From the IMG/VR virus record IMGVR_UViG_3300013126_000294, positions 1 to 21,430 of that record: a DNA stretch of 21,430 nucleotides, one strand, 5' to 3'. Made by a program: the position numbers and the translations under genes. Positions 3,269 through 18,661 of this stretch are shown one piece after another. The DNA is from a virus. The stretch's first letter is position 1; the number at the start of each line of letters is the position of its first letter. Under the pieces are notes generated by a model, which was given only the letters and a program-made list of their open reading frames with translations, made no database searches and was not told the DNA's origin.

Positions 3269-4544
3269 AAAAATTCAGGAACAAATCGATTATGGTGATT
3301 ATCCTGAAAGGATGGACCCATCTTTGGAGAGAAAAATTTCTAACCCTCAAAGTCCATATGCACAGAATCCTGCACTTCCTCGTCGTGAACAGGACGTACA
3401 AAGATTAATCACAAATAGATTTAAACAAGTTGTTGATAAGTTAAGAAGTGCTACCTCTAATCAAACACTTGTTACTCCAAGAAATCTTGCAATGATGATT
3501 AAATCTGAGGCTTATGGTAAAATTATGCCAACTTGGCAAATTGAGCAACGGCACCTTGAAGAGTTAAAAGACTTGGCTCTGAGGGCTTGTCTCGAAGAGT
3601 CTGAAGTTCCTGAAAATTGGTTCAATTTTGATTTACACTTAGGGGAACAAATCAATGTACAAAATTTCCGAAACGAATCTGAGGAATTAGAAGATGAAAC
3701 CGAAGAAGAAATAAAAGCAAAGGCTTTGATGGATGGTGATGAACTTACTCGGAAGGAATTGGTTGAACTTGAAATTCATAAGAGAAATATCATCAACGCA
3801 ATTATTCAGGGGACAGCCAAAAAAGGACACTACGTCTTCCAAAAACCAAGTGTTAGAAGAGAACTTAACAGGATTAACCCAAATCTCTATGACAATTACT
3901 TATTGATTATGGCTTTGAATGACTTCAATTATTTTACTGATGAGGCTTCGATAGAATATATGTCTGAAACAGGACAAGGTGTTGGTGGAAAAGTAGAACT
4001 CCAAGCCAACAACAACAACGATGATGAGGGCGAAGGTGAAGAAGGTGAAGAAAAACCTGATACAACAATCTCTGCTTGGGGTATGTTATTTCCAATCTTG
4101 TGTCACGAAATTTTGAAAGGTTTGGAAGAGGCTAAAGGTAGATATGGTTTACCTGAAGACCCTGTTATAAGACAACAAGTTATGGGTCAAACGGACACTT
4201 TACCTATGGAGGCCTGGTCTTTGAGAATTGGTCCGCCAGTTGTTGAAAAATTACGATTTGCTCTACCCGATGAGATTTTTGAAGATGAAAATAAAGGTTT
4301 AATAAATTGGTTCCAAATGGAACTTTATAAACTTCCTGCTGCTGAGGTAATAAAACTTACGGGAGACGCAATTTCAGAGGATAAATCTCGTGTTTCTAAA
4401 GCAACCGATAGGTTCCGCGAGATTATGAAAAGGGCGAACCAACTCAAAACAGATTATGAAAATTTCAAACCAGAGAAAGAAGACTCTGGTGAAGATGGTT
4501 TTGACGACTTGTTGGCAGGACTTGGTATAAGTCCCTCCAAATAA
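3255..4544 (+). CDS. Conserved phage protein immediately upstream of terminase, unknown function
   Basis: 429 residues, soluble. The N-terminus is basic. Residues about 45-115 are helical (QDVQRLITNRFKQVVDKL, then LAMMIKSEAYGKIMPTWQIE). A Glu-rich stretch follows (about 140-165, EELEDETEEEIKAKA), then a helical region that includes RNIINAIIQGTAKKGHYVFQ. About residues 250-270 there is an Asn/Asp/Glu/Gly low-complexity loop, and then a folded C-terminal part (ISAWGMLFPILCHEILKGLEEAKGRYG). The start lies within the upstream gene and the stop overlaps the terminase ATG by one base (TAATG), so translation is probably coupled. The position directly before the large terminase raises the small-terminase question, but the length is far above the usual 150-200 residues and no DNA-binding motif is visible. 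I leave the function open. Confidence 0.8.
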   Translation: MARSKKIQEQIDYGDYPERMDPSLERKISNPQSPYAQNPALPRREQDVQRLITNRFKQVVDKLRSATSNQTLVTPRNLAMMIKSEAYGKIMPTWQIEQRHLEELKDLALRACLEESEVPENWFNFDLHLGEQINVQNFRNESEELEDETEEEIKAKALMDGDELTRKELVELEIHKRNIINAIIQGTAKKGHYVFQKPSVRRELNRINPNLYDNYLLIMALNDFNYFTDEASIEYMSETGQGVGGKVELQANNNNDDEGEGEEGEEKPDTTISAWGMLFPILCHEILKGLEEAKGRYGLPEDPVIRQQVMGQTDTLPMEAWSLRIGPPVVEKLRFALPDEIFEDENKGLINWFQMELYKLPAAEVIKLTGDAISEDKSRVSKATDRFREIMKRANQLKTDYENFKPEKEDSGEDGFDDLLAGLGISPSK

Positions 4545-6313
4545 TGAGTCTAACAAAAGAACAACTTTTAATAGAGTATAAGAAGTGTATGACTAATACG
4601 CCATACGCTCTTAAAACCTATCTCCAAACTTATGACAACACTGTTTCCAAGTACGTACCGCTGGAGTTATTCCAAGACCAAGTTCAATTAATTAACGATT
4701 ACGACAATCACAATGAAAACATTGCCCTGAAGTATCGTCAGGCGGGGGTATCAACAGTCTCTGCTGCTTGGTCAAGTAAAAGATTGGCATTTGCCCGTAA
4801 AGAAAAACCTGAAAAAATATTGATTATTGCCAACAAACTTGAAACATCTGTTGAATTTGCAAACAAAATTCGAGCATTTACAGAACAATGGCCAAGTTGG
4901 GTTGGTATTGGTTTCTCAGGTGAAAAAAACTCTGCAAGACATTTCAAACTTTCAAATGACTGTGAAGTAAAGGCCGTAGCAACATCAAAAGATGCACTTC
5001 GTGGATATAGCCCCACGGTCTTAATCTTTGACGAGGCTGCGTTTATTGAGGCCGACAGTGATTTTTGGGCTGCTTGTATGGCATCACTTTCTACAGGTGG
5101 TAAAGTGATAGTTATTTCTACTCCAAATGGTTATGACCCAATTTATTATGAAATCTATGACCAAGCCTTGAGGGGTATGAATGATTTCAAAATCACAGAA
5201 ATGTTTTGGTATAGAGACCCCCGTTATACAAAAGATTTGTATATGGTCAAAACCAAAGATATCGTTCATTATTTACTCAACAAAGAAGAATATACTGCCG
5301 AGGATATTATAAGTTTGAAAGACATAGACATTCGGGAAAGAAGTTTAACAAGTCTTCAAGTTTACCTTTCTGATGGTTACAAACCTTGTTCAACTTGGTT
5401 CGAGGCTATGGTAAAAAAACTTAAGTACGACCGAAGGAAAGTTGCTCAGGAATTGGAATGTAATTTCTTGGGTTCAGGTGATAACGTCTTTGACTCTAAC
5501 ACACTACAGGACATTTCCCAAAACTACATAAAGGAACCAAATGCAAAGTTGATGGCTAATCAATTATGGATTTGGAAAGAACCTGAAAACGGACATAGAT
5601 ACGTAATGGGTATAGACGTGTCACGAGGTGACTCAGAAGACTTTTCGAGTATACAAATCATTGACTTTGACGCTCGTGAACAGGTATTGGAATTTGTTGG
5701 TAAAATTCCACCCGATGTGTTAGCTGAAATTGCGTTTAAGTGGGGTAATATGTATAGTGCTCTTTGTATTACAGATTTGACTGGTGGTATGGGTGTGGCA
5801 ACATCAAGAAAATTACAAGAATTAGGTTATGAAAACTTTTACATTGAGGGAGTCGATTTTGCAAATAAATGGAAGTACGACCCCAAGTTAAAAGAAAAAA
5901 TTCCAGGTATAAACTTCAACGCAAAAAGGGTTCAAATTATTGCATCTTTTGAGGAAGCAATTAGACACAAATTCCAAATTCGTTCGAGTAGACTTTTAAA
6001 TGAAATGGGTACTTTCGTTTACATAAACGGAAGACCTGACCACCAAAGAGGCCATCACGATGACTGTATTATGGGAATCTCAATGGCTTGTTTTGCAGCC
6101 GAGGCGGCATTTCCCTCACTAAGTAAAGTTGAAAATCATACCAAGTCTATGTTAAATTCTTGGACAACTATGGTTTCCGAAAACAAAGACCAATCAAAAT
6201 ACTTTAATCCATCATTACCTCAGACACCAGGGTCAATGACAAAAAATAGTAAATATTACACTCCTACTCGTAATGATTATGAACAATATAAATGGTTGTT
6301 TGGTCCGAAGTAG
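4544..6313 (+). CDS. Terminase large subunit (T4 gp17-like DNA-packaging ATPase/nuclease)
   Basis: 589 residues, close to T4 gp17 (610). It is the motor that docks on the portal, hydrolyses ATP to pump DNA into the prohead and cuts the concatemer. The N-terminal ATPase shows a gp17-type Walker A variant, RQAGVST (65-71), Walker B VLIFDEAAF (159-167; D163, E164) and coupling motif STPNG (192-196). The C-terminal RNase-H-like nuclease shows the metal-binding acids in GIDVSRGDSEDF (D358), ITDLTGG (D411) and GHHDDCIMG (D506/D507), matching the gp17 triad D401/E458/D542 in spacing. The Trp/Tyr-rich C-terminal tail (YKWLFGPK) could contact the portal. The start overlaps the upstream stop by one base and the portal gene follows after 38 bp. 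All key residues are present, so it should be active. Confidence 0.96.
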   Translation: MSLTKEQLLIEYKKCMTNTPYALKTYLQTYDNTVSKYVPLELFQDQVQLINDYDNHNENIALKYRQAGVSTVSAAWSSKRLAFARKEKPEKILIIANKLETSVEFANKIRAFTEQWPSWVGIGFSGEKNSARHFKLSNDCEVKAVATSKDALRGYSPTVLIFDEAAFIEADSDFWAACMASLSTGGKVIVISTPNGYDPIYYEIYDQALRGMNDFKITEMFWYRDPRYTKDLYMVKTKDIVHYLLNKEEYTAEDIISLKDIDIRERSLTSLQVYLSDGYKPCSTWFEAMVKKLKYDRRKVAQELECNFLGSGDNVFDSNTLQDISQNYIKEPNAKLMANQLWIWKEPENGHRYVMGIDVSRGDSEDFSSIQIIDFDAREQVLEFVGKIPPDVLAEIAFKWGNMYSALCITDLTGGMGVATSRKLQELGYENFYIEGVDFANKWKYDPKLKEKIPGINFNAKRVQIIASFEEAIRHKFQIRSSRLLNEMGTFVYINGRPDHQRGHHDDCIMGISMACFAAEAAFPSLSKVENHTKSMLNSWTTMVSENKDQSKYFNPSLPQTPGSMTKNSKYYTPTRNDYEQYKWLFGPK

Positions 6314-6321
6314 TATTTATA
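6314..6321 (+). promoter_or_regulatory. TATTTATA element upstream of portal gene
   Basis: TATTTATA lies in the 38-bp gap between terminase and portal, 30 nt before the portal ATG and on the coding strand. It is one of eight such elements in the window, each before a gene start, so a phage promoter core is plausible. No partner -35 box is evident. Confidence 0.45.
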
Positions 6322-6351: not shown

Positions 6352-8208
6352 ATGAGTGATAAGAATTTTACCATATGGCAACGATTAGGTAGGGCAATGG
6401 GTCCTGATGCTCTTATGAGTCAGGATTTTCCTATATACAAGTTCGACAAAAAAGAACTTTTAAGAACTACCGATAAAGCTGAATATGAAAAAGAAAAATT
6501 ACAAGCTCGTCAGACATCTTACTTAGCAGGTCAATTTGCGAAGGTTGAAAGTAACTTATACACACAAGCGGTTTACTATGAACCAAACAGATTGGCGTCG
6601 TATTACGATTATGAATCGATGGAATATACTCCTGAGATTTCTGCGGCACTTGATATCTACGCTGAAGAATCTACCACACCAAATGAGGATGGTTTTGTTC
6701 TCCAAATTTATTCTGAATCTAAAAGAATTAAATCTGTCTTGGCGGATTTATTCAACAATAACTTAGATATCAACACAAACTTACCTATGTGGACTCGTAA
6801 CACTTGTAAGTATGGTGACAATTTTATTTATCTCAGATTGGACCCTGAAGGGGGTGTTATCGGTTGTCAACAATTACCAAACGTTGAAATCGAAAGAATT
6901 GAGAGAGGTTTGATGAACGGGTCAAACTACGAAATCAAAAAAGAGGACGACCAAAAAGGTTTGAAATTCTATTGGAAAGCAAGAAATATGGAATTCCAAC
7001 CTTGGGAAATAGGTCACTTCAGACTATTGGGTGACGATAGAAAATTGCCGTATGGTACATCAATGTTGGAAAAGTCCCGTAGAATTTGGAAACAACTTCT
7101 ATTATCGGAGGACGCGATGTTGATATATCGTACTTCAAGAGCCCCAGAACGTAGAGTATTTAAAGTCTACGTAGGAAATATGAACGACGACGACGTTGAG
7201 GCGTATGTACAACGTGTTGCAAACAAGTTCAAAAGAGAACAAATTGTTGACAGTAAAACAGGTCAGGTTGATATGAGATTCAACCAAATGGCTGTTGACC
7301 AAGATTATTTTATTCCTGTTCGTGACCCCGCAGCACCAAATCCAATTGATACTTTGGCAGGTGCTCAGAATCTTTCTGAAATTGCGGATATTGAATATCT
7401 TCAGAAAAAACTTGTAACTGCTCTTCGTATACCTAAGGCGTTTCTTGGTTTCGAAGACGTAGTTGGAGATGGAAAGAGTTTAGCTCTTATGGATATTCGT
7501 TTTGCAAGAACCATCAATAGAATTCAAAAATCTATGGTTCAGGAATTAAATAAGATTGCGATTATCCACTTGTTTTTGTTGGGATTTGAAGAAGAAATTT
7601 CAAACTTTACTTTGGGATTAACAAACCCCTCAACTCAGGCAGACCTTCTTAAAATTGACATTTGGAAAGAAAAAATGTTATTGTACAAAGATATGGTTTC
7701 TGACCCTGGCTCAGGTATTGCAGCAACTTCATCAACGTGGGCTAAGAAGCATTTATTCCAATGGTCTGACGATGAAATCAGAGTTGATTTATTACAACAA
7801 AGAATTGAAAAAGCTGTTGGTGAAGAACTCAAACAAACACCAACTGTAATTGTTAAGACAGGTATATTCGATACAATCGATAAATTGTATGGTACGGGTA
7901 AAGCACCTGCAGGTACACCAGCACCAGGAGGAGAAGAGGCCGGAGCACCAGCTGAGTTAGGTGGAGCATTCGCTGGTGGAGATTTGGGAGGAGAGGTACC
8001 AGCATCACCTCCACCAGGTGGAGAGTTAGGAGGGGGTGAACCACCGACACCACCACCGGGTGAAATTACACCAGAAAGTATTTCAAATCGTGATATGAAT
8101 ATCCTTTTGGAATCAGATATGTTTGGTAAAAAGTTTTTAGATTTGGGAGTTGGACAACAAAGTTTAGGAAAAATCGAGGAAGAACTGGATAAGTTACTTG
8201 GTTCCTAA
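6352..8208 (+). CDS. Portal vertex protein (T4 gp20-like)
   Basis: 618 residues. It forms the dodecameric ring at the packaging vertex, initiates prohead assembly and later joins the tail. The N-terminal part has the gp20-type pattern: a basic start, YYDYESMEYTPEISAALDIYAEE (about 84-106), then MWTRNTCKYGDNFIYLRLDP, LLGDDRKLPYGTSMLEKSRRIWKQL (wing and stem region) and IYRTSRAPERRVFKVYVGNM. The long clip and stem helices follow (EYLQKKLVTALRIPKAFLGFED, FARTINRIQKSMVQELNKIA). Residues 514-571 are an unusual Gly/Pro/Ala/Glu low-complexity insert, followed by a 47-residue helical tail. The core is long enough to be complete. It sits directly after terminase, whereas in T4 genes 18 and 19 lie between them. 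Confidence 0.95.
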   Translation: MSDKNFTIWQRLGRAMGPDALMSQDFPIYKFDKKELLRTTDKAEYEKEKLQARQTSYLAGQFAKVESNLYTQAVYYEPNRLASYYDYESMEYTPEISAALDIYAEESTTPNEDGFVLQIYSESKRIKSVLADLFNNNLDINTNLPMWTRNTCKYGDNFIYLRLDPEGGVIGCQQLPNVEIERIERGLMNGSNYEIKKEDDQKGLKFYWKARNMEFQPWEIGHFRLLGDDRKLPYGTSMLEKSRRIWKQLLLSEDAMLIYRTSRAPERRVFKVYVGNMNDDDVEAYVQRVANKFKREQIVDSKTGQVDMRFNQMAVDQDYFIPVRDPAAPNPIDTLAGAQNLSEIADIEYLQKKLVTALRIPKAFLGFEDVVGDGKSLALMDIRFARTINRIQKSMVQELNKIAIIHLFLLGFEEEISNFTLGLTNPSTQADLLKIDIWKEKMLLYKDMVSDPGSGIAATSSTWAKKHLFQWSDDEIRVDLLQQRIEKAVGEELKQTPTVIVKTGIFDTIDKLYGTGKAPAGTPAPGGEEAGAPAELGGAFAGGDLGGEVPASPPPGGELGGGEPPTPPPGEITPESISNRDMNILLESDMFGKKFLDLGVGQQSLGKIEEELDKLLGS

Positions 8209-8216
8209 TATTTATT
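8209..8216 (+). promoter_or_regulatory. TATTTATT element between portal and next gene
   Basis: TATTTATT overlaps the bases just after the portal stop and ends 16 nt before the ATG at 8233. It is the same element as upstream of the portal, protease, scaffold and other genes, on the coding strand. Its position argues that the downstream gene starts at ATG 8233 rather than at TTG 8215, which would lie inside the element. Confidence 0.4.
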
Positions 8217-8232
8217 GGAAAATCCCCACGTA

Positions 8233-8943
8233 ATGACCTTTGGACAAATAAAATCTGTTGTAGAAAAAAACCTTGTAGAGTCCTACAATGACTCTGCTCA
8301 ATTCAAGAAAACCTTAAGAGAATTTAAACACAACATTCTCGAAAATAAAAATTTTTCGAAGTTATATTCTTTGTATGATGACTTGTATAAACCACAAGGT
8401 TTATCATCAGAAGATGCCGAGTTATACCTAAACGAAGGTATTGAATTAATCAGACATTTGATAGAAAATGTTAGTTTACCAAAAGGGGGAGAAAAGGTAA
8501 AAAACAACTATCAAGATTTGGATAATTTAGTGTATTTCAAAAACATCAACTTGAAGGAAAGAATTGTTTCAAAAAAGAAGATTTTAGAAACTTTAAAAAG
8601 TAATAACATTACTATAAAGGAATCAATTGAAATTCCGTTAAAGTCTATGGTTAGTATTGCAAACCAAACAATTCAAAGTTATTTAGAAAATTTAGATGAG
8701 TCAACCAAAAAAGAAGTGTTTCACATTTTGGCTAGTAGACCAGAGGATTTGGAAAAAGAATTTGTTCAACTAAAAGAATCTGCAGTTTTGAAATTAGAGA
8801 ATCTTCTTGAAAAAGAAAATGAAGATGAAATGAAACAGAAATTGGCCGAGACAATCGAAAAAATTAAAATAGAAAACTTCGAACAAGTTAACTACATCAA
8901 ATTAAAACATTTGGAAGAATCTATTTCTCAGACTGAGTCTTAA
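8233..8943 (+). CDS. Helical protein between portal and prohead protease, unknown function
   Basis: 236 residues from ATG 8233. A TTG at 8215 in the same frame is rejected because it falls within the TATTTATT element and ATG is the normal start here. It is almost entirely alpha-helical and rich in Lys, Glu, Leu and Asn. The N-terminus is amphipathic (FGQIKSVVEKNLVESYND), and long charged helices or coiled coil follow from about residue 120 to the end. In T4 the small prohead core genes 67 and 68 occupy this slot between 20 and 21. A core or scaffold-accessory role is therefore a positional guess; this protein is much larger than gp67 and I see no sequence match. Its 3' end overlaps the oppositely oriented bS21 gene by 23 bp. 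Confidence 0.75.
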   Translation: MTFGQIKSVVEKNLVESYNDSAQFKKTLREFKHNILENKNFSKLYSLYDDLYKPQGLSSEDAELYLNEGIELIRHLIENVSLPKGGEKVKNNYQDLDNLVYFKNINLKERIVSKKKILETLKSNNITIKESIEIPLKSMVSIANQTIQSYLENLDESTKKEVFHILASRPEDLEKEFVQLKESAVLKLENLLEKENEDEMKQKLAETIEKIKIENFEQVNYIKLKHLEESISQTES

Positions 8944-9109
8944 GAAATTGTAGATGTTTTGCAACTTTCATTTGTTCTCTTTTTCTAACAGATTTCTTTT
9001 CAAATTCTTTTAATTCAACCAATCTTTGGTTTTGTTTTGTTTTGATGACCTTTGATTTTAAGGTTTTCAGGGCTTTTTCTATATTTGAGTCAACTTTTAC
9101 TACTAACAT
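8921..9109 (-). CDS. rpsU: Phage-encoded ribosomal protein bS21
   Basis: 62 residues, the normal size for bS21, a small-subunit protein bound near the 3' end of 16S rRNA and the mRNA exit. The pattern fits along the whole length: MLVVKVDSN (the N-terminal strand, as in M-x-x-x-x-V), IEKALKTLKSKVIK (first helix), then KEFEKKSVRKREQMKVAKHLQFLK, matching the family F-x-K-x-S-x-x-R-R/K core and basic second helix. The F-x-K-x-S-V form resembles the Bacteroidota version. It is oriented against its neighbours, converges on and overlaps the preceding gene, and has neither a Shine-Dalgarno sequence nor a TATTTATW element in its leader, so it may be expressed on a different schedule from the head genes. 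Phage-borne bS21 is known from cultivated and metagenomic phages. The likely role is to replace or compete with host bS21 on ribosomes. Confidence 0.82.
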   Translation of the reverse strand: MLVVKVDSNIEKALKTLKSKVIKTKQNQRLVELKEFEKKSVRKREQMKVAKHLQFLKTQSEK

Positions 9110-9132
9110 ATATCATACATATATTTGGATTG

Positions 9133-9157
9133 AGTAAAAATCTTTACTATTTTTTTC
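9133..9157. other. Inverted repeat AGTAAA-N4-TTTACT followed by T-run
   Basis: A six-base perfect inverted repeat with an AATC loop is followed on the + strand by A and seven Ts, in the 76-bp gap between the divergent bS21 and 9186 genes. It could be a weak terminator for + strand read-through or an operator for the divergent pair. The stem is AT-rich and thus weak, so I hold this loosely. Confidence 0.3.
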
Positions 9158-9185: not shown

Positions 9186-9635
9186 ATGAAGAAGGGAAAA
9201 ACAATTAACATCAATCAATACGACTCACTCAAAACATTTTACGGTACAGTTGATTCAAAAGAACTTAAATCAATTTACATAAACATTCAAACTTGGGTTA
9301 CTCCTTTAGAAGATAAAGAAAATTGGAATAACGTAGTCAATACTTTGACCCGTTCAATAAAACACTCTGTATTTGGGTCTTTAGACAGAGAACTTTTCAA
9401 AGAAAACTTTATTGTCGATTTGGACCTCAGAACAAGTGGGATAAGAAAAGATAAGAAGTCATTTATGAATTTAGAAATAAATATTTTTACAACCACTCCC
9501 CAAGATTTTAAATCAAATGAAATCAAAGAATCAGTAAAAAAAATCATCAAAAAAATCTACAGGGAGAATATTGTCAACAATCGACATTTTAATTTTTCAT
9601 CCTCCAAAAACTCTGAAATCTACCAAACTATCTAA
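9186..9635 (+). CDS. Small unknown protein upstream of prohead protease
   Basis: 149 residues, basic. It looks alpha/beta: KTININQYDSLKTFYGTV, KSIYINIQTWVTP, a helix NVVNTLTRSIKHSVFG, then strands NFIVDLDLRTSGI and SFMNLEINIFTT, and a final helix SNEIKESVKKIIKKIYRENI. It has no signal or membrane segment and no catalytic motif I can name. It lies between the divergent bS21 gene and the protease gene, with a 33-bp gap to the protease that holds a TATTTATT element, so it is probably transcribed separately from the protease. Unknown function; an accessory head-assembly protein is only a positional guess. Confidence 0.75.
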   Translation: MKKGKTININQYDSLKTFYGTVDSKELKSIYINIQTWVTPLEDKENWNNVVNTLTRSIKHSVFGSLDRELFKENFIVDLDLRTSGIRKDKKSFMNLEINIFTTTPQDFKSNEIKESVKKIIKKIYRENIVNNRHFNFSSSKNSEIYQTI

Positions 9636-9668: not shown

Positions 9669-10376
9669 ATGAAGATTTTAGGACCTAATCAGACGGGTAA
9701 AGGTATTCTTATTGAAATGGATGCTGGTTTCGTAAACCCGAAGGATAGATTGAATGAAGATTTTATTAAAGAACAAAAAGAGATAGATTATAGAAATCCT
9801 TTTGAGTTTTATGCCGTTTTACAAAAATATGGTGTACCAAATAGAAATGGTCGTGTCTACCCTGAAAGAATTTTGAAAAGAGAAGCTGATAGATATAAGA
9901 CGGCAATCAAAAAAGGTTTATCAACCTCTGAATTAAACCACCCTGAATCTTCTCTAATTGATTTAGACAGAGTTGCTCACATAATCACTGATGTGTGGTG
10001 GGATGGAAATATCTTGATGGGAAAACTAAAATTGTTAACTTCACCAGGTTTCCACGAAAGTGGTTTTGTATCAACAAAAGGTGATATCGCAGCTAACTTG
10101 ATGAGACAAGGTGTTACTATGGGTGTGTCATCTCGTGGAGTTGGTTCATTAAAAAAAGTTGGTGAACAGAATGAAGTTCAGGATGATTTTGAATTAATTT
10201 GTTTTGACCTTGTATCGTCACCATCAACACCTGGAGCTTATCTATTTACAAACCCTGAGGATAGAAACAACTACGAAGAAAACCTCGATGAGGAAAGAAA
10301 AGTTCGTCAAGAAGAAAAAGGTTTGGACAAGTCAGTTGATTTAATGAAAAGATTAACCGATTATTTGGGTAAATAA
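9669..10376 (+). CDS. Prohead core protease (T4 gp21-like serine protease)
   Basis: 235 residues, near T4 gp21 (212). It is the maturation protease that sits in the prohead core and cleaves scaffold, capsid and core proteins after Glu. The assemblin-like fold signature is clear: an N-terminal strand and loop with GVPNRNGRVYPERIL (55-69), the catalytic histidine in SELNHPESS (H91), and the nucleophile serine in GVTMGVSSRGVGSL (S154 or S155), followed by a conserved acidic stretch FELICFDLVSSPSTPGAYLF that probably completes the active-site region. The charged C-terminal tail (about 200-235) may be removed on activation, as in related proteases; that is inference. It is followed after 10 bp by the DUF4494-like gene and then by a terminator. 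Confidence 0.93.
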   Translation: MKILGPNQTGKGILIEMDAGFVNPKDRLNEDFIKEQKEIDYRNPFEFYAVLQKYGVPNRNGRVYPERILKREADRYKTAIKKGLSTSELNHPESSLIDLDRVAHIITDVWWDGNILMGKLKLLTSPGFHESGFVSTKGDIAANLMRQGVTMGVSSRGVGSLKKVGEQNEVQDDFELICFDLVSSPSTPGAYLFTNPEDRNNYEENLDEERKVRQEEKGLDKSVDLMKRLTDYLGK

Positions 10377-10386
10377 ATTAAAACAT

Positions 10387-10596
10387 ATGGATGAAAAATA
10401 TTTTGTAGCGAAAGTTGTTTATGAGTTACCCGATGAAAACTCAGGAAGATTAAAGAAAATGAGGGAAGAAAAACTTGTTAAAGGTTACTCTCCGACAGAT
10501 GTTGAGGCTAAAGTGACCAAAAAATATACAGGGTTTCAACACGATTGGCGAATAACGGCAATTGTTGAAAGTAAAATTGATGAAGTAATTGAATAA
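10387..10596 (+). CDS. Small DUF4494-like protein
   Basis: 69 residues. The layout YFVAKVVYELPDENSGRLKK, then EEKLVKGYSPTDVEAKVTK and WRITAIVESKIDEVIE resembles DUF4494, a small Bacteroidota family built as strand, Gly turn, strand, 'teaEa' helix and an 'I-x-x-I-x-x-S-K-x-x-E-V' end. The match is by eye, so moderate. It is the last gene of the protease unit, starting 10 bp after the protease stop and ending 7 bp before a strong terminator. No catalytic residues are apparent. If the family call holds, it supports a Bacteroidota host. Confidence 0.7.
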   Translation: MDEKYFVAKVVYELPDENSGRLKKMREEKLVKGYSPTDVEAKVTKKYTGFQHDWRITAIVESKIDEVIE

Positions 10597-10678: not shown

Positions 10679-10686
10679 TATTTATA
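10679..10686 (+). promoter_or_regulatory. TATTTATA element upstream of scaffold gene
   Basis: TATTTATA ends 13 nt before the scaffold ATG and lies about 50 bp after a strong terminator, so a promoter is needed here. This is the best contextual support in the window for the element being a promoter core. Confidence 0.55.
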
Positions 10687-10699
10687 GTAAAAAAATTCT

Positions 10700-12295
10700 A
10701 TGTCGCAAAAAGATTTAGTAGAAGAGGCTTTGCTCCAAATGAAGAATGTGGAGAATGTTATAGCCGAAAACGCAAAAGGAATACTTGCTTCAACTATGAA
10801 GGAAGAAATCAGTCAGTTGGTAAAAGAGTCTCTATCTGAGCAAGATGAGATTGAGCTTGATGCAATGGCGGACGTTGATGTCGATGACGACTCGATGGAA
10901 GTTGATGTTGATGAACTTGAAATGGATTCAGACGAAATGGATTCAGACGAAATGGATTTCGGTGATGAAGATGAAACCATCGATTTGACAGATGCTTCTG
11001 ATGAGGAAATTCTGGCGATTTTCAAACGTATGGGAGATGAAGACGGAATTATCGTAAAGAAAGACGGTAATGATGTACACATCAAGGATACTGATGAAGA
11101 CGTTGAATACCTTGTGAAAATGAACGAGGAAGAAGAGTACGAATTAGAAGAAATGCAAATGGATATGGAAGAATCAGATTTAGAAGAAAAAGACACAGAC
11201 TTGGAAGCAGTGTTGGACGCATTGTACGCTGAAGGCGAATACAATGAAGAAGATGATGAAGAAGAGGAAGAGGTTGACGAAATTATGTATGAAATCGTTA
11301 TGGATGAAGAAGATGAAATGGAAGAAAGTTCACACGAGGAAATGGAAGAATCTTACGATGAAATGGAAGAATCTTACGATGAAATGGAAGAATCTTACGA
11401 TGAAATGGAAGAAGGTTCTGAAGACTACAACCTCGAGGAAGCTAAAATGACTGTAAAACCTAAAGGCGTTGGTATGGGTAATCCTAAATTTAAATACGGT
11501 AGTTCACTACCTAAGAAAGGATTCGATGACCACAAGAAACAGGGACCTACAAAAATGGGTACTGGTAAAGCTAAGTTCGAGTTCAAGGAAGGTGAAATGG
11601 AAGAAGGCAAGGATAAAAACTACGGCTCTAACAAACACGAGTACAAACGTAAGGATGTAAGAGGTGTTGAGAAGAAAGCTGGTGACAAAGACGGACACTA
11701 CAAAGACTACGAAGGAAAATTCGGTGGTAACAAAGGTGATAAGTCTAAGACACATCCTGGCAAGAAAGACTACGAAACCAAAGAAGAAACGAAAGAAGCT
11801 GCTAGAACTTATGGATTTGGTTCAAAAGAAGGTAGAGGTTTAAGAAAAGGAATTACAAATAACCGTAATTACAATTACACAGACAATGGTGTTAAAGTTG
11901 AGTCTATCGACGCAGAAATGAAAATGCTAAGAGAGAAAAATGAAGAATACAGAAAAGCTTTGAATGTTTTCAGAGAAAAATTAAATGAAGTTGCTGTATT
12001 CAATTCAAACTTGGCTTACGCTACACGTTTGTTTACTGAACATTCTACTACGAAAAAAGAAAAGATAAACATTCTTAGAAGATTCGACTCTGCAGAAACT
12101 TTGAAAGAATCAAAACAACTCTACAAAACAATGAAAGATGAACTTTCAAAGGTAGAGACACAAGGACTTAATGAAAGTGTTGAGAGAAAAATCAACAACC
12201 AAGCAAGTTCAGGTTCTTCAACAAGTTTAATCGAATCTAGAGCTTATGAAAATCCTCAATTCTTGAGAATTAAAGATTTAATGGCAAAACTCTAA
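10700..12295 (+). CDS. Prohead scaffold core protein (T4 gp22-like)
   Basis: 531 residues, about twice T4 gp22 (269). It forms the internal core around which the capsid shell assembles and is then degraded. The gp22-like part is the C-terminus: a coiled-coil helix (about 400-430, EMKMLREKNEEYRKALNVF) and REKLNEVAVFNSNLAYATRLF followed by TEHSTTKKEKINILRRFDSAE, a signature of gp22 relatives, ending in ENPQFLRIKDLMAKL. The N-terminal helix (DLVEEALLQMKNVENVIAE) leads into an extremely acidic Asp/Glu/Met region (about 45-245) with exact tandem repeats, then a Lys/Gly-rich basic region (about 250-385). The acidic-then-basic expansion is unlike T4 and may serve as extra core mass. It precedes the capsid gene by 38 bp with no terminator between. 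Confidence 0.88.
   Translation: MSQKDLVEEALLQMKNVENVIAENAKGILASTMKEEISQLVKESLSEQDEIELDAMADVDVDDDSMEVDVDELEMDSDEMDSDEMDFGDEDETIDLTDASDEEILAIFKRMGDEDGIIVKKDGNDVHIKDTDEDVEYLVKMNEEEEYELEEMQMDMEESDLEEKDTDLEAVLDALYAEGEYNEEDDEEEEEVDEIMYEIVMDEEDEMEESSHEEMEESYDEMEESYDEMEESYDEMEEGSEDYNLEEAKMTVKPKGVGMGNPKFKYGSSLPKKGFDDHKKQGPTKMGTGKAKFEFKEGEMEEGKDKNYGSNKHEYKRKDVRGVEKKAGDKDGHYKDYEGKFGGNKGDKSKTHPGKKDYETKEETKEAARTYGFGSKEGRGLRKGITNNRNYNYTDNGVKVESIDAEMKMLREKNEEYRKALNVFREKLNEVAVFNSNLAYATRLFTEHSTTKKEKINILRRFDSAETLKESKQLYKTMKDELSKVETQGLNESVERKINNQASSGSSTSLIESRAYENPQFLRIKDLMAKL
11336..11413 (+). repeat. 21-bp tandem repeat, about 3.7 copies, in scaffold gene
   Basis: Copies at 11336-11356, 11357-11377 and 11378-11398 plus a 15-bp partial at 11399-11413 encode EEMEESY and then D-E-M-E-E-S-Y units. 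The DNA copies are identical apart from one base in the first, which indicates recent slippage or unequal exchange. A shorter 15-bp duplication (DSDEM) occurs at about 10926-10955. Confidence 0.92.
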
Positions 12296-12333: not shown

Positions 12334-14121
12334 ATGGGAGCATTATTAGAATCAGGTCTTGTTGGTAACATTGGTCTTAAGCACCTTAAAGTTATCAAAG
12401 AAGATACTATTAACAAATGGGAAAAATTAGGTTTCCTAGAAGGCTTAAGAGGCCACCTAAAAGAGAACGTTGCTCAGTTATATGAAAACCAAGCATCATA
12501 CCTCATCAACGAAGCTGCGTCTACTGCTGACTCAGGTTCTTTCGAAACTGTTGTGTTTCCTATCGTTAGACGTGTTTTCTCAAAACTTTTAGCTAACGAT
12601 ATCGTTTCAGTACAAGCTATGAACTTACCAATCGGTAAATTATTCTACTTTGTACCTAACATTCAGTCATACACAGGTGCAGACGCTAACGAGCACTGGG
12701 CTCCTTACGGTTCACCAAACGCTGCGGCTGGTCAAACTCCTAACAGTGGTTACGACTATAACACACAAAAAGACCTTTACGATAGATTCTACGAAGGTAA
12801 CGAACCTGCATTGGACCCACCAGGACTTTATGATTACTCTAAAGGTCAATTCTCAGCAATCACAGGTGGTAACAGAACTGTAGTATGGGTTGCTGACCAA
12901 TTAGTAGTTTCAGGTTACGGTACAGATTCTTACAGAAAAGTTCTTCTTGTTATGTCAGGTTTTGCATCTGACGGTGCTGGTAAACTTATCGGTCCTAACG
13001 GTCAACCTATGGACACTGAAGAATTCTTGGCAGACTTGACAATTAGAGGTGCTGCGGCTAACGCAACAACTTCAGCTAACACAACAAATAACTACTTGTT
13101 CAGAGTTGTAACTCAAAGATACGGTAAAGGTATTGTTCAGTACGGTCAAAACGAAACGTTAGCTTTCCCAAATTCATTGACTGATGGTGGTACTTACTAC
13201 GACGTTTGTGATGCTGAAGGTAAAATTTACTTAGAAGTTGATTTACAAGTTCCTGCTGAAGTAGGTGCTAACACAATCGACGGTTACACAGGTGCAACAT
13301 TCTCTTCTACGTCAGCAAACGCACAAGCGTTCACAACTACGTACAGAATCTACAAGAATCTTGAATTTGAGGATAAAATTGGTGAAGTTTCTTTCGACCT
13401 ACAGTCAGTAACTGTATCTGTAACAGAAAGAAAACTTAGAGCTCAATGGTCTCCTGAAATGGCTCAGGACGTTGCAGCATTCCACAACATTGACGCTGAA
13501 GCTGAATTGACAGCTTTGTTGTCTGAACAGGTGGCTGCAGAGATTGACCGTGAAATCTTGAGAGACTTGAGAAAAGCGGCAGCTTGGAATCTACGTTGGG
13601 ACTACAACGGATGGAAGAGATTAGGTTCGAATGCAGTTCCTTACACTCAGAAGGACTGGAACCAAACTCTTATCACAGCAATCAACCAAATCTCAGCTCA
13701 AATCCACAAGTCTACACTTAGAGGTGGAGCTAACTGGATTGTAGTATCTTCTGAGGTATCTGCTATCTTTGATGACTTGGAGTACTTCCACGTATCAAAC
13801 GCAGCTCCTGAGCAAGACCAATACAATATGGGTATTGAGAGAGTTGGAACATTGGCTGGTAGATATCAAGTTTACCGTGACCCTTACTTCCCAGCAAACC
13901 AAGTGTTGTTAGGACACAAAGGAACATCGTTACTTGATACAGGTTACATTTACGCACCGTATGTACCTCTACAATTAACTCCTACAATGTACAACCCATT
14001 CAACTTCACACCAATCAAAGGTATTATGACAAGATACGCTAAGAAGGTGGTAAACAACCGTTTCTACGGTAGAATTACAGTTGATGGTGTAAGAACATTC
14101 GACTTGAGAGAATTGAGATAA
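12334..14121 (+). CDS. Major capsid protein (T4 gp23-like)
   Basis: 595 residues. It is the main shell subunit with an HK97-type fold. The N-terminus is a helical delta-like domain (LKVIKEDTINKWEKLGFLEG, then HLKENVAQLYENQASYLINE). The junction LINE-AAST at residue 60/61 fits the hydrophobic-x-Glu cleavage rule of gp21-type proteases and lies where T4 gp23 is cut (65/66). Gp23 hallmarks follow: FPIVRRVFSKLLANDIVSVQAMNLPIGKLFY, later RKLRAQWSPEMAQDVAAFHNIDAEAELTALL, WNQTLITAINQISAQIHKSTLRGGANWIV, and the C-terminal PYVPLQLTPTMYNPFNFTPIKGIMTRYAKK. The 38-bp leader is A-rich, lacks a Shine-Dalgarno sequence, and has ATAAATA rather than TATTTAT. A strong terminator follows 23 bp after the stop, so this is probably the end of a highly expressed unit. 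Confidence 0.96.
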   Translation: MGALLESGLVGNIGLKHLKVIKEDTINKWEKLGFLEGLRGHLKENVAQLYENQASYLINEAASTADSGSFETVVFPIVRRVFSKLLANDIVSVQAMNLPIGKLFYFVPNIQSYTGADANEHWAPYGSPNAAAGQTPNSGYDYNTQKDLYDRFYEGNEPALDPPGLYDYSKGQFSAITGGNRTVVWVADQLVVSGYGTDSYRKVLLVMSGFASDGAGKLIGPNGQPMDTEEFLADLTIRGAAANATTSANTTNNYLFRVVTQRYGKGIVQYGQNETLAFPNSLTDGGTYYDVCDAEGKIYLEVDLQVPAEVGANTIDGYTGATFSSTSANAQAFTTTYRIYKNLEFEDKIGEVSFDLQSVTVSVTERKLRAQWSPEMAQDVAAFHNIDAEAELTALLSEQVAAEIDREILRDLRKAAAWNLRWDYNGWKRLGSNAVPYTQKDWNQTLITAINQISAQIHKSTLRGGANWIVVSSEVSAIFDDLEYFHVSNAAPEQDQYNMGIERVGTLAGRYQVYRDPYFPANQVLLGHKGTSLLDTGYIYAPYVPLQLTPTMYNPFNFTPIKGIMTRYAKKVVNNRFYGRITVDGVRTFDLRELR

Positions 14122-16101: not shown

Positions 16102-16587
16102 TTATTTATCATTAAACAATAGGTCCAAAAAGTTTTCCCAAGTATCTAAATCGGTTTCATTTCGACCTATGTTTGCAGAATAACAACTTAACACAACATT
16201 ATCTTTAGTATAACCTTTATTTGAATCTAATCTTTCTAAAGAGGGTTGTTGAGGATGTTTTTTGTGGTCCGAAGGTATTAATGCAATTTTGAACCAATAA
16301 CATAAACCTTTTTGTCTAATGAACATTTCATTTATATCGTCAACAGTGAGCGTATTTTCAAGTTTACGGTGTTTGGAATCGTTTATTAAGGTGTTTTGCC
16401 AAAGCCTAACCCTTCTTTCTTTTTGTTTAATACCCTCCATTTTTCTATGTTCGGGGTCTAACCTTAATTTTTTCTTATATTTTCTAGTTTCGATTAAAAT
16501 ACACTCCTTACATCTATTACCTCTCTGTGTTTGGTAGAAATCATTATTTGATTTAAACTCACCACATTTACTACATTCTCTATCCAT
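16102..16587 (-). CDS. HNH-type endonuclease with N-terminal zinc ribbon (free-standing)
   Basis: 161 residues from the second in-frame ATG (16587); the first (16611) would put the TATTTATT element inside the gene. The N-terminus is a zinc ribbon, C5-x2-C8 and C26-x2-C29 (ECSKCGEFK, RCKECIL), with a pattern common in phage HNH proteins (C..C...KP...F). A Lys/Arg-rich helical linker follows. The C-terminal module has QKGLCYWFKIAL, PSLERLDSNKGYTKDNVVLSC and NIGRNE, the phage HNH layout in which PSL(D/E)R(I/L)D and KGYTKDN carry the metal- and DNA-binding residues (N130 is the HNH Asn). The first conserved His is hard to place, so activity is uncertain. Such genes are often homing endonucleases inserted between phage genes. 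A strong terminator lies just upstream. Confidence 0.8.
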   Translation of the reverse strand: MDRECSKCGEFKSNNDFYQTQRGNRCKECILIETRKYKKKLRLDPEHRKMEGIKQKERRVRLWQNTLINDSKHRKLENTLTVDDINEMFIRQKGLCYWFKIALIPSDHKKHPQQPSLERLDSNKGYTKDNVVLSCYSANIGRNETDLDTWENFLDLLFNDK

Positions 16588-16590
16588 ACT

Positions 16591-16598
16591 AATAAATA
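16591..16598 (-). promoter_or_regulatory. TATTTATT element upstream of HNH gene (minus strand)
   Basis: On the minus strand this reads TATTTATT and ends only 3 nt before ATG 16587. If it is a promoter core, the transcript would start inside the coding sequence, so either the true start is further in or this copy is chance. It is the weakest of the series. Confidence 0.25.
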
Positions 16599-16620
16599 TA
16601 TGGATAGACATTTAAATACA

Positions 16621-16645: not shown

Positions 16646-17125
16646 TTAACAGTAAGGTGGTGAACATCTTTTTTTACCATCAAGACCTTTTATCTTCCCT
16701 TTACAAACTTGTACTCCGTGTCCATTACTATACGCACTTGGAAATACGTCGTACCTCGCCTTGGCAGCGGCTTTACCCCTTGCACAAAGTTTGGTACCCG
16801 TTTTTTTTCTCCCTTCTTCCATCACTTCCACGTCAACATCTATTGTCCTGATATCTTCACCGTGAATTTCGTTCATCATAAAATCGAAAACTTGGTCCAA
16901 GTTATTTTTTGCCTCACTTACGTGGTCATCAGCCCAATCGTGTCCATTATCCAATATTTGGGACACGGTATGTTCATCTAAGTTTAGTAATAAATCACAC
17001 TGTCTTTTCATTTGTTCTAAGTTTTGAAAAAACATATATCTATTACTTCTACCCTCGTGGTCTTCTTTGAGGACTTTAGCAACCAAATTGGCTAATTCTG
17101 TTTCTGTTATTTTAACTACTTTCAT
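16646..17125 (-). CDS. Cys-containing phage protein with KAAAKARYDVFPSAY motif
   Basis: 159 residues. The N-terminus is an amphipathic helix (ITETELANLVAKVLKED), a form seen at the ends of several phage proteins and like a capsid-targeting peptide. The middle is helical and acidic. The C-terminal 55 residues hold TKLCARGKAAAKARYDVFPS, AYSNGHGVQVCKGKIKG and KKRCSPPYC, with cysteines at 114, 141, 154 and 159. This 'LCARGKAAAK-R-DV-PSAYANG' unit recurs in many marine and freshwater phages and often sits in virion gene clusters. I recall it from such proteins but cannot name a Pfam entry. Basic residues and spaced cysteines suggest metal or nucleic-acid binding. It overlaps the upstream gene as ATGA and also has a TATTTATA element 34 nt upstream. 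Confidence 0.78.
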   Translation of the reverse strand: MKVVKITETELANLVAKVLKEDHEGRSNRYMFFQNLEQMKRQCDLLLNLDEHTVSQILDNGHDWADDHVSEAKNNLDQVFDFMMNEIHGEDIRTIDVDVEVMEEGRKKTGTKLCARGKAAAKARYDVFPSAYSNGHGVQVCKGKIKGLDGKKRCSPPYC

Positions 17126-18636
17126 TTTTTGTTTACGATTGAGAATTGTAATGTCTGTTTATAAATATCTTTCTCACCACTTGTGTCTACTTTTAAATCA
17201 ACAAAATATTCATTAGGGATTTTATCTCTCATATCAAATATGAAATAGTATTCGTTTGGTGTTCTATTGACACGAGTCCAATCTTGTACCTGAACCTCAG
17301 TAGTCCCTTCCATAACATAAACTCGGTAGTACAATTTGATATCAGTAAGTTGAATTTGTGATGACCATTGTTTCTTTACGTTGACACCAATCTTTCTAAT
17401 TTCAGTATTCAGAATCTGTTCGTTCTGTAAAATACCGTAATAATTGAATCCAAACTTGGATGGTTCCTGAGATTGTGTTCCAATTTGGATTCCTGCGGTG
17501 TATGGTTGTAATATAAATTGATTTGTGACGTTTGGTATTGATTGACCATTAATATTCAAATTTGACCAAACATCGTAGTAAGCACAAGGTGTTGGGGAAC
17601 CTGTGAATACATTTGGGATAGTTACTTCATAGACACCTTTTGTAACCAAACAAGTAGTCAAACCTGTGGTGCCAGATACAAAGTCTCCATTAGCATCCTC
17701 AACACTTACTGTTGGTAGATTATCTAAATTAACGAAATCACCATCTTGGTAGATGTAAAGATATAGTTTGTTAGTTTGATTCTTTAAGAATACATTTCTA
17801 TCATCATTAATCAAATCGTCGTAGGTTGTTTGTAGATAAGGTTGATAAAAAGTTTGTGTATACTGAGAAAAGAATCCTACACTGTAGCTTTCTGTGAGAC
17901 CTGTAATCAATTCAATATCTGGTTTGTAAGCAATACCCCAGCCTGTCACACCTGTTAGAGAACCATCCAAAATACTATTAATTTCGTTGGTCATATCAAA
18001 GTTAATATCCTCATTACCTAATTCAAAATGTTGAGTATCAACAATTGTGATAGCGGAGTAATTAAGTCCTGTCAAACCTGTAAGACTGTTTGTATTGTTG
18101 TAGATTCCTGGTGTTGACCAATTTGTTGTTGTGGTAGTTTGATACCAATTTGAAGGTCTTGTTGAGAATGCTGCGTCGTTATACTGTTGTACGACTGACA
18201 GTCCCCCCGATACACCATTCGAAGTTAAACCATATGGGTTATAGTCGTATCCTACACCTTCATCCCAAGATTGAGGTGCTCCTGTTGTTCCTGAAAATTT
18301 TGGAATTCTGAAAAGTATTAAATCAAAAGAAGCTGCCCTTTTTCTTCCATTTGACATATTCGTGTTAATCAAATCGTCCTCAAACGATGAAGTATTAACC
18401 ATATTCAGAGTGTGTGTCATAGCACTTGTACACCCTGTAGAAATAACACCACTGGCAATTTGTTGTTGTAAATAAGTTAAGTCTAAATCGAAAATAAATC
18501 GAGTATATCCATAATTTGGTACAATCAATTCTGAGAAACCAAAATTCAATTCAACAACGGGATTTCGTGCCGTATTTGTGTATAGGTTTGAAATGATTGT
18601 GTTGTTTCTCGAAAAATATGACCTTAATATTGACAT
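17122..18636 (-). CDS. Large virion structural protein, probably tail or surface associated
   Basis: 504 residues, rich in Thr, Asn, Tyr and Gly and strongly beta-predicted. The N-terminal half has long strands and a Gly/Asn loop region (GVGYDYNPYGLTSNGVSG) and ITIVDTQHFELGNEDINFDM, which resembles the end of a jelly-roll-like domain with a WGIAYKPDIE stretch; this is reminiscent of DNRLRE-type virion domains. The C-terminal half has repeated Ig-like strands (LYLYIYQDGDFVNLDNLPTV and SGEKDIYKQTLQFSIVNKK). There are no enzyme motifs. Composition and position next to the OB-fold baseplate gene support a virion protein on the tail or baseplate, but the exact part is unknown. It begins 26 bp after the baseplate gene's stop, with a TATTTATA element just upstream, and its stop overlaps the next start (ATGA). 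Confidence 0.8.
   Translation of the reverse strand: MSILRSYFSRNNTIISNLYTNTARNPVVELNFGFSELIVPNYGYTRFIFDLDLTYLQQQIASGVISTGCTSAMTHTLNMVNTSSFEDDLINTNMSNGRKRAASFDLILFRIPKFSGTTGAPQSWDEGVGYDYNPYGLTSNGVSGGLSVVQQYNDAAFSTRPSNWYQTTTTTNWSTPGIYNNTNSLTGLTGLNYSAITIVDTQHFELGNEDINFDMTNEINSILDGSLTGVTGWGIAYKPDIELITGLTESYSVGFFSQYTQTFYQPYLQTTYDDLINDDRNVFLKNQTNKLYLYIYQDGDFVNLDNLPTVSVEDANGDFVSGTTGLTTCLVTKGVYEVTIPNVFTGSPTPCAYYDVWSNLNINGQSIPNVTNQFILQPYTAGIQIGTQSQEPSKFGFNYYGILQNEQILNTEIRKIGVNVKKQWSSQIQLTDIKLYYRVYVMEGTTEVQVQDWTRVNRTPNEYYFIFDMRDKIPNEYFVDLKVDTSGEKDIYKQTLQFSIVNKK
17160..17167 (-). promoter_or_regulatory. TATTTATA element within 3' end of virion gene
   Basis: On the minus strand it reads TATTTATA, 34 nt before ATG 17125 and inside the last codons of the upstream virion gene. 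It could give the small Cys-containing protein its own transcript in addition to translational coupling. Confidence 0.35.
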
Positions 18637-18653: not shown

Positions 18654-18661
18654 TATAAATA
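18654..18661 (-). promoter_or_regulatory. TATTTATA element upstream of large virion gene
   Basis: On the minus strand it reads TATTTATA, 17 nt before ATG 18636, in the 25-bp gap after the baseplate gene. The flanks (GATATTTATAAAAG) closely resemble those of the element before the portal gene (GTATTTATAAAAG) on the other strand. Confidence 0.5.

Follow-up and report, generated by a model that had tools for sequence, protein, structure and literature searches.

Both Chen et al. 2022 (PMC9723584) and McNutt et al. 2023 (PMC9976891) state that, of all genes for ribosomal proteins, the one for bS21 is found most often in phages. Chen et al. described a bS21 gene lying on the reverse strand, together with its neighbours, in phages to which Bacteroidetes hosts were assigned, and defined clades a-e. 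They reported divergence at positions 21-28 and a Tyr, His or Phe at position 54, as well as late transcription in relatives, and hypothesised that the phage protein substitutes for its counterpart on host ribosomes. A word search of that article found promoters, leaderless mRNA, ribosome binding and autoregulation unmentioned. On the bacterial side, McNutt et al. 2023 established experimentally an autoregulation in which bS21-less ribosomes translate rpsU of Flavobacterium johnsoniae by way of its very strong Shine-Dalgarno (SD) sequence, and their discussion links phage bS21 with autoregulation.

We analysed a 21,430-nucleotide stretch of viral DNA, hereafter the window (IMG/VR record IMGVR_UViG_3300013126_000294, positions 1 to 21,430). 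Its bS21 is of a kind already published for phages; the gene, its context, its host and the substitution idea have been known since 2022. What is new here is that the phage gene is SD-less, that a TATTTATA motif occurs in these phages and leads to the prediction of a near-leaderless mRNA, that bS21 loss is nested, and that loci whose TerL sits on long branches have bS21 at this position too.

The bS21 gene, its surroundings and its loss

The sequence-only reading of the window had described a 62-residue bS21-like gene on the opposite strand amid head genes, and this description was accurate: an ORF of 62 codons with an ATG start sits exactly at 8921-9109 on the minus strand, in the order portal(+), gA(+), bS21(-), gB(+), protease(+) (Table 1). 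From the window sequence alone, the bS21 call would be borderline by Pfam, since the protein scores 24.5 bits (E=2.3e-5) against Ribosomal_S21 (PF01165), slightly under the gathering cut-off of 27, which several of its relatives exceed. The identity was settled because profile searches match where the single sequence is borderline. A profile built from 15 phage homologues matched the bS21 of F. johnsoniae (7JIL) at E=1e-14 and a second solved bS21 (9i5v) at 2.5e-13, and an hhalign comparison of the phage and host bS21 alignments gave a probability of 99.3% (E=1.3e-20). At the level of sequence profiles, the window ORF is confirmed as a bS21 nearest to those of Bacteroidota, as had been proposed. 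AlphaFold2 modelled helices at residues 8-35 and 39-61 (pLDDT 81, pTM 0.37); Foldseek found no match for this model in the PDB, a search that a two-helix model of 62 residues makes uninformative. The ORF is under strong purifying selection, with a dN/dS of 0.03-0.08 between the window gene and its three nearest comparable relatives. This estimate was taken from window-clade pairs only, and the all-pairs value, in which 27% of pairs lay above 1, was set aside because indels have probably spoiled the alignment of many pairs of equal length.

The window protein keeps the general signature residues of the bS21 family and also bears the phage-clade signature S21 V23 I24 K27 Q28 (F. johnsoniae numbering). 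V23, I24 and Q28 were present in 62/62 distinct phage proteins, and positions 21-28 are fixed otherwise than in hosts. At position 54, where F. johnsoniae has the Tyr whose stacking on A1534 of 16S rRNA characterises Bacteroidia-type bS21, 51 of the 62 phage proteins have Tyr and 11 have His, the window protein being one of the latter; H or F occurs there in 4 of 77 host proteins, His in 3. In a tree of 64 columns the phage bS21 sequences form a single clade with respect to the sampled hosts (support 99/96), both sets having been gathered through their similarity to the query sequence. That these phages acquired bS21 more than once was considered and rejected, as the distinct phage proteins make up one clade under that similarity-biased sampling.

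The Terminase_6N, Portal_T4, Peptidase_S77 and Gp23 proteins were all strongly scored in the window, which by these matches is a fragment of a T4-like myovirus; a T4-like jumbo myovirus infecting Bacteroidota is the best explanation for the source virus. A Bacteroidota host, which the sequence-only reading had also favoured, is well supported by sequence comparison; with the profile-profile hit to bS21, neither of the two outcomes which that reading had named against itself, no such hit or a host outside Bacteroidota, was encountered. The closest bacterial bS21 genes in genome contigs all come from Bacteroidota, a result somewhat biased by the two Bacteroidota sequences held in the query alignment, and the DUF4494 family was found in Bacteroides only, among 14 control genomes; both point the same way as the hosts assigned in PMC9723584.

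Of 122 related IMG/VR loci that cover the stretch from portal to protease, 115 share one arrangement: portal, gA, bS21 (reverse), gB, protease. The bS21 gene runs opposite to the head genes and is not part of their operon; its 3′ end overlaps that of gA by 23 nt, and the intergenic region between bS21 and gB measures 76 nt. gA is a conserved neighbour in relatives both with and without bS21; gB may correspond to what Chen et al. 2022 (PMC9723584) called 'bS21_CN'. Elsewhere in the window, positions 1-861 encode a long T/P/N/S-rich repeat protein (PTNTATNTPTPT...) that is cut by the window edge, and an Endonuclease VII/HNH-like gene at 16102-16611(-), present in just one related locus, looks like a free-standing mobile endonuclease insertion.

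Table 1. Features of the window, with positions counted from its first nucleotide.
Feature	Positions	Strand	Remarks
Terminase large subunit, T4 type	4544..6313	+	profile match
TATTTATA, phage promoter-like motif	6314..6321	+	30 nt before portal ATG
Portal protein (Portal_T4)	6352..8208	+	profile match
gA	8215..8943	+	242 aa, unknown function, listed with TTG start
Phage bS21 (rpsU-like)	8921..9109	-	62 aa, ATG start; Pfam and profile matches
25 nt upstream of bS21	9110..9134	-	best SD pairing -4.6 kcal/mol, no SD
TATATGTA	9116-9123	-	poor match to TATTTATA: 2 mismatches, 6 nt from bS21 ATG
gB	9186..9635	+	149 aa, unknown function; divergent from bS21
Prohead core protease (Peptidase_S77)	9669..10376	+	profile match
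DUF4494 protein	10387..10596	+	host hint
TATTTATA	10679..10686	+	13 nt before ATG of 531-aa gene at 10700
Major capsid protein (Gp23)	12334..14121	+	profile match
TATTTATA	17160..17167	-	34 nt before ATG of 159-aa gene 16646-17125(-)
TATTTATA	18654..18661	-	17 nt before ATG of 504-aa gene 17122-18636(-)

bS21 is missing in the other seven of the 122 loci (L112, L114, L117, L118, L137, L139 and L145). Judged by eye, their bS21 slot holds an inverted repeat, then a T run and a TTGACA-type sequence, before gB is reached, that is, a terminator-like repeat and a promoter-like sequence. In a quick, midpoint-rooted TerL tree these seven loci make up a single clade (SH-aLRT 99) that lies within the phages with bS21, and the TerL of the window groups with bS21-bearing IMG/VR contigs. 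Since all seven sit in this one nested clade, the simplest reading of the tree is a single loss of bS21 in that sublineage. No PF01165 match was found anywhere in one bS21-less contig of 309 kb; the function of bS21 is thus dispensable for some phages, because a whole sublineage lost the gene and this member has no copy elsewhere.

Shine-Dalgarno pairing and gene starts

SD pairing was calculated in the same way for host and phage, as the pairing of the 16S tail GGAUCACCUCCUUUCU with the 25 nt upstream of a gene. For Bacteroidota rpsU (n=80) the median was -17.6 kcal/mol and 52 genes (65%) fell below -13, leaving 28 of the 80 sampled host genes without an SD below that value. In contrast, a strong SD was absent upstream of 51 distinct phage bS21 genes, where the median was -2.0 and the minimum -8.8, with 0/51 below -9, as against -1.8 for shuffled sequences. 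The extended SD of the autoregulated rpsU of Bacteroidia was not found at the window bS21 either (-4.6 kcal/mol). Although its product is a bS21 protein, the window gene is no rpsU of the SD-autoregulated type. Among bacteria, we observed that some Flavobacteriaceae have two bS21 genes, one of them diverged and without a strong SD (L183, L233 and L184, in genomes G002, G006 and G005), and that in Psychroflexus (L165, G001) the sole bS21 copy is diverged and SD-less.

It had further been claimed that gene starts across the window lack a convincing SD, and the calculation agrees: no SD signal was found for 19 window ORFs, whose median was -2.5 kcal/mol compared with -3.0 after shuffling. In five phage contigs the SD medians of the genes equal those of shuffled sequences. 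Two of the five have a slight excess of genes below -8 kcal/mol (0.085 vs 0.030 and 0.065 vs 0.020 in shuffled sequences), and a few SD-bearing genes could still be present in those two. SD enrichment at phage genes is thus slight or absent.

The promoter-like motif TATTTATA is the commonest upstream octamer, and strongly enriched, in both contigs for which a ranking of octamers was made; over five contigs it occurs within 60 nt upstream of genes at 16-40 sites, when 0.4-2.7 would be expected from genome density. With contig gene starts assigned mechanically as the first ATG, its distances to the ATG fall into two classes, one of 3-5 nt (40 sites) and one mainly of 9-22 nt. T4 late-type sites (TATAAATA) lie 14-28 nt from annotated starts, with 0 at 3-5. 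In F. johnsoniae a distance of 4-5 nt separates the host -7 element from the transcription start, and 87% of leaders are longer than 10 nt (PMC6847099); the host element TAHHTTTG peaks at exactly 4 nt from the ATG in the phage contigs, and few host genes have that spacing. Many genes of the five contigs (L254-L301) have their ATG 3-5 nt past TATTTATA, and these phages, unlike their hosts, may use many leaderless mRNAs. That such usage is a consequence of bS21 was rejected, as contig G014, which lacks bS21, has the 3-5 nt spacing class as well.

The bS21 gene itself has TATTTNTA exactly 4 nt from the ATG in 25 of 54 distinct upstream sequences. The base at -1 is T in 48/51 phage bS21 genes, and A at -3, the favourable base in F. 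johnsoniae (PMC6847099), is depleted (14/51 against 426/780), the sequences being related so that p-values overstate their independence. Because about half of the bS21 upstream sequences fall in the 3-5 nt TATTTATA class, the phage bS21 mRNA is predicted to be near-leaderless; this prediction rests on the relatives, since the motif of the window gene is weak (2 mismatches, gap of 6 nt). As for the factor that might read TATTTATA, the five contigs all encode a conserved protein of 248 residues (L262, minus strand; homologues L281, L289, L298 and L259) that is weakly similar to gp55, the late sigma factor of T4 (phmmer 6e-4 against a small set; E=0.043 for phrog_234, 'late sigma transcription factor'), and is a candidate for a gp55-like late sigma factor.

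A proposed role for phage bS21 and competing explanations

We propose that, late in infection, phage bS21 would be made from a near-leaderless, SD-less mRNA, and that its synthesis would thus be independent of the bS21-deficient ribosomes with a free anti-SD that drive host rpsU. On host 30S subunits the protein would occupy the bS21 site in place of host bS21, and the aromatic-type residue at position 54 (His here, Tyr in most relatives) would keep the anti-SD in its pocket. Once the bS21-deficient ribosomes were filled, SD-driven translation of host rpsU would stop, and the filled subunits would stay competent for SD-less mRNAs, as nearly all the phage genes are. To this proposal as a whole, comprising SD-less synthesis outside host feedback, replacement of bS21, an anti-SD kept sequestered and repression of host rpsU, we give a probability of roughly 0.5. 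It builds on what was observed: which family the protein belongs to and how well it is conserved, the absence of an SD, the pattern of residues and the scarcity of SD sequences at phage genes. Against it count the effect of Y54A in F. johnsoniae described below, with His at this position in the window protein, the weak upstream motif of the window gene, the sublineage without bS21, the slight excess of SD-bearing genes in two contigs and the 28 host rpsU genes with no SD below -13. The near-leaderless start, the incorporation into ribosomes, the repression of host rpsU and the benefit to phage translation are what we infer, the ribosome steps by analogy with the biochemistry of F. johnsoniae and with the incorporation of another phage's bS21 in E. 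coli (PMC9723584). A further preference for phage mRNAs, brought about by the changed N-terminal half, is conceivable. Two of the mechanisms suggested from the sequence alone, that host bS21 autoregulation is shut off and that bS21 is restored on host ribosomes, are compatible with the data and not mutually exclusive. More tentatively, the system could act as a one-way takeover switch, in which a feedback-blind phage bS21 silences host rpsU and ribosomes progressively carry the phage version.

In the model of Chen et al. 2022, phage bS21 with its altered first helix would create a specialised ribosome that favours phage over host mRNAs. The single phage bS21 clade (99/96) and the fixation of positions 21-28 unlike in hosts, likewise reported in PMC9723584, argue for such a function. 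However, no bS21-dependent shared feature was found at phage gene starts, and leaderless-type spacing is also seen in G014, which lacks bS21; we hold this model to be rather doubtful. Phage bS21 could instead be a supply, topping up bS21 for 30S assembly or for damaged ribosomes at high late output while leaving the choice of mRNA unchanged. Such a role would fit the constant pairing of bS21 with late structural genes, the late transcription in relatives (PMC9723584) and the retained family signature, yet it leaves the different fixation of positions 21-28 unexplained, and the loss of bS21 in one sublineage also tells against it; we judge it unlikely.

The sequence-only reading had also suggested that the phage protein changes anti-SD availability. 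If phage bS21 freed the anti-SD, SD-bearing phage mRNAs would be translated, and the His54 of the window protein, in place of Tyr, could be taken as a hint of this, as the F. johnsoniae mutation Y54A is reported to free part of the anti-SD and to raise SD-dependent translation (PMC9976891). But Tyr or His stands at position 54 in 62/62 phage proteins, His54 is also found in the 3/77 host proteins mentioned above, and SD signal is scant or absent at phage genes whether residue 54 is His or Tyr; the data disfavour this suggestion, which seems very unlikely. A role away from the ribosome, such as that of a virion component or a protein binding RNA, would suit the location among head genes and the virion packaging raised as a possibility in PMC9723584, but it is highly improbable given that the family residues are kept and that the gene lies antisense to, and outside, the operon of the head genes.

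For the proposal of SD-independent bS21 replacement, the contrast of host and phage gene, the one controlled by its SD and the other lacking any, provides a reporter-testable account of how bS21 could be displaced without triggering its replacement. The same contrast also argues against anti-SD unmasking by these phages.

Comparison with known systems

In the INPHARED phage set, from which near records may be missing, we found no close relative of the window bS21, and only uncultured huge phages matched. These phages of 634-735 kb (LR756501, LR756502 and LR745206) resemble the window in encoding a bS21, but two of the three have a host-like first helix (KRKFDK, KAKYNK), and no window genes were detectable within 3 kb. 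In addition, the bS21 of the 735-kb phage LR756501 (L304) keeps an SD-like AAAGGAGG (-12.1 kcal/mol), which sets it apart from the window group. The bS21 of Pelagibacter phage HTVC008M (Mizuno et al. 2019, cited in PMC9723584) was reported to enter E. coli 70S ribosomes; this phage, likened here by description, differs from the window phage in having a host of another phylum.

The phages of Chen et al. 2022, also likened by description, share with the window a reverse bS21 between two conserved hypothetical genes, in a context of TerL, portal, protease and MCP. The bS21 of F. johnsoniae (7JIL) belongs to the same protein family as that of the window, and residue 54 is expected to touch the 3′ tail of 16S rRNA in both. 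The passages of PMC9976891 on phage bS21 do not treat the upstream regions of phage rpsU, and it is there that the two genes part: F. johnsoniae rpsU has an extended SD and feedback control, whereas the phage gene is without an SD.
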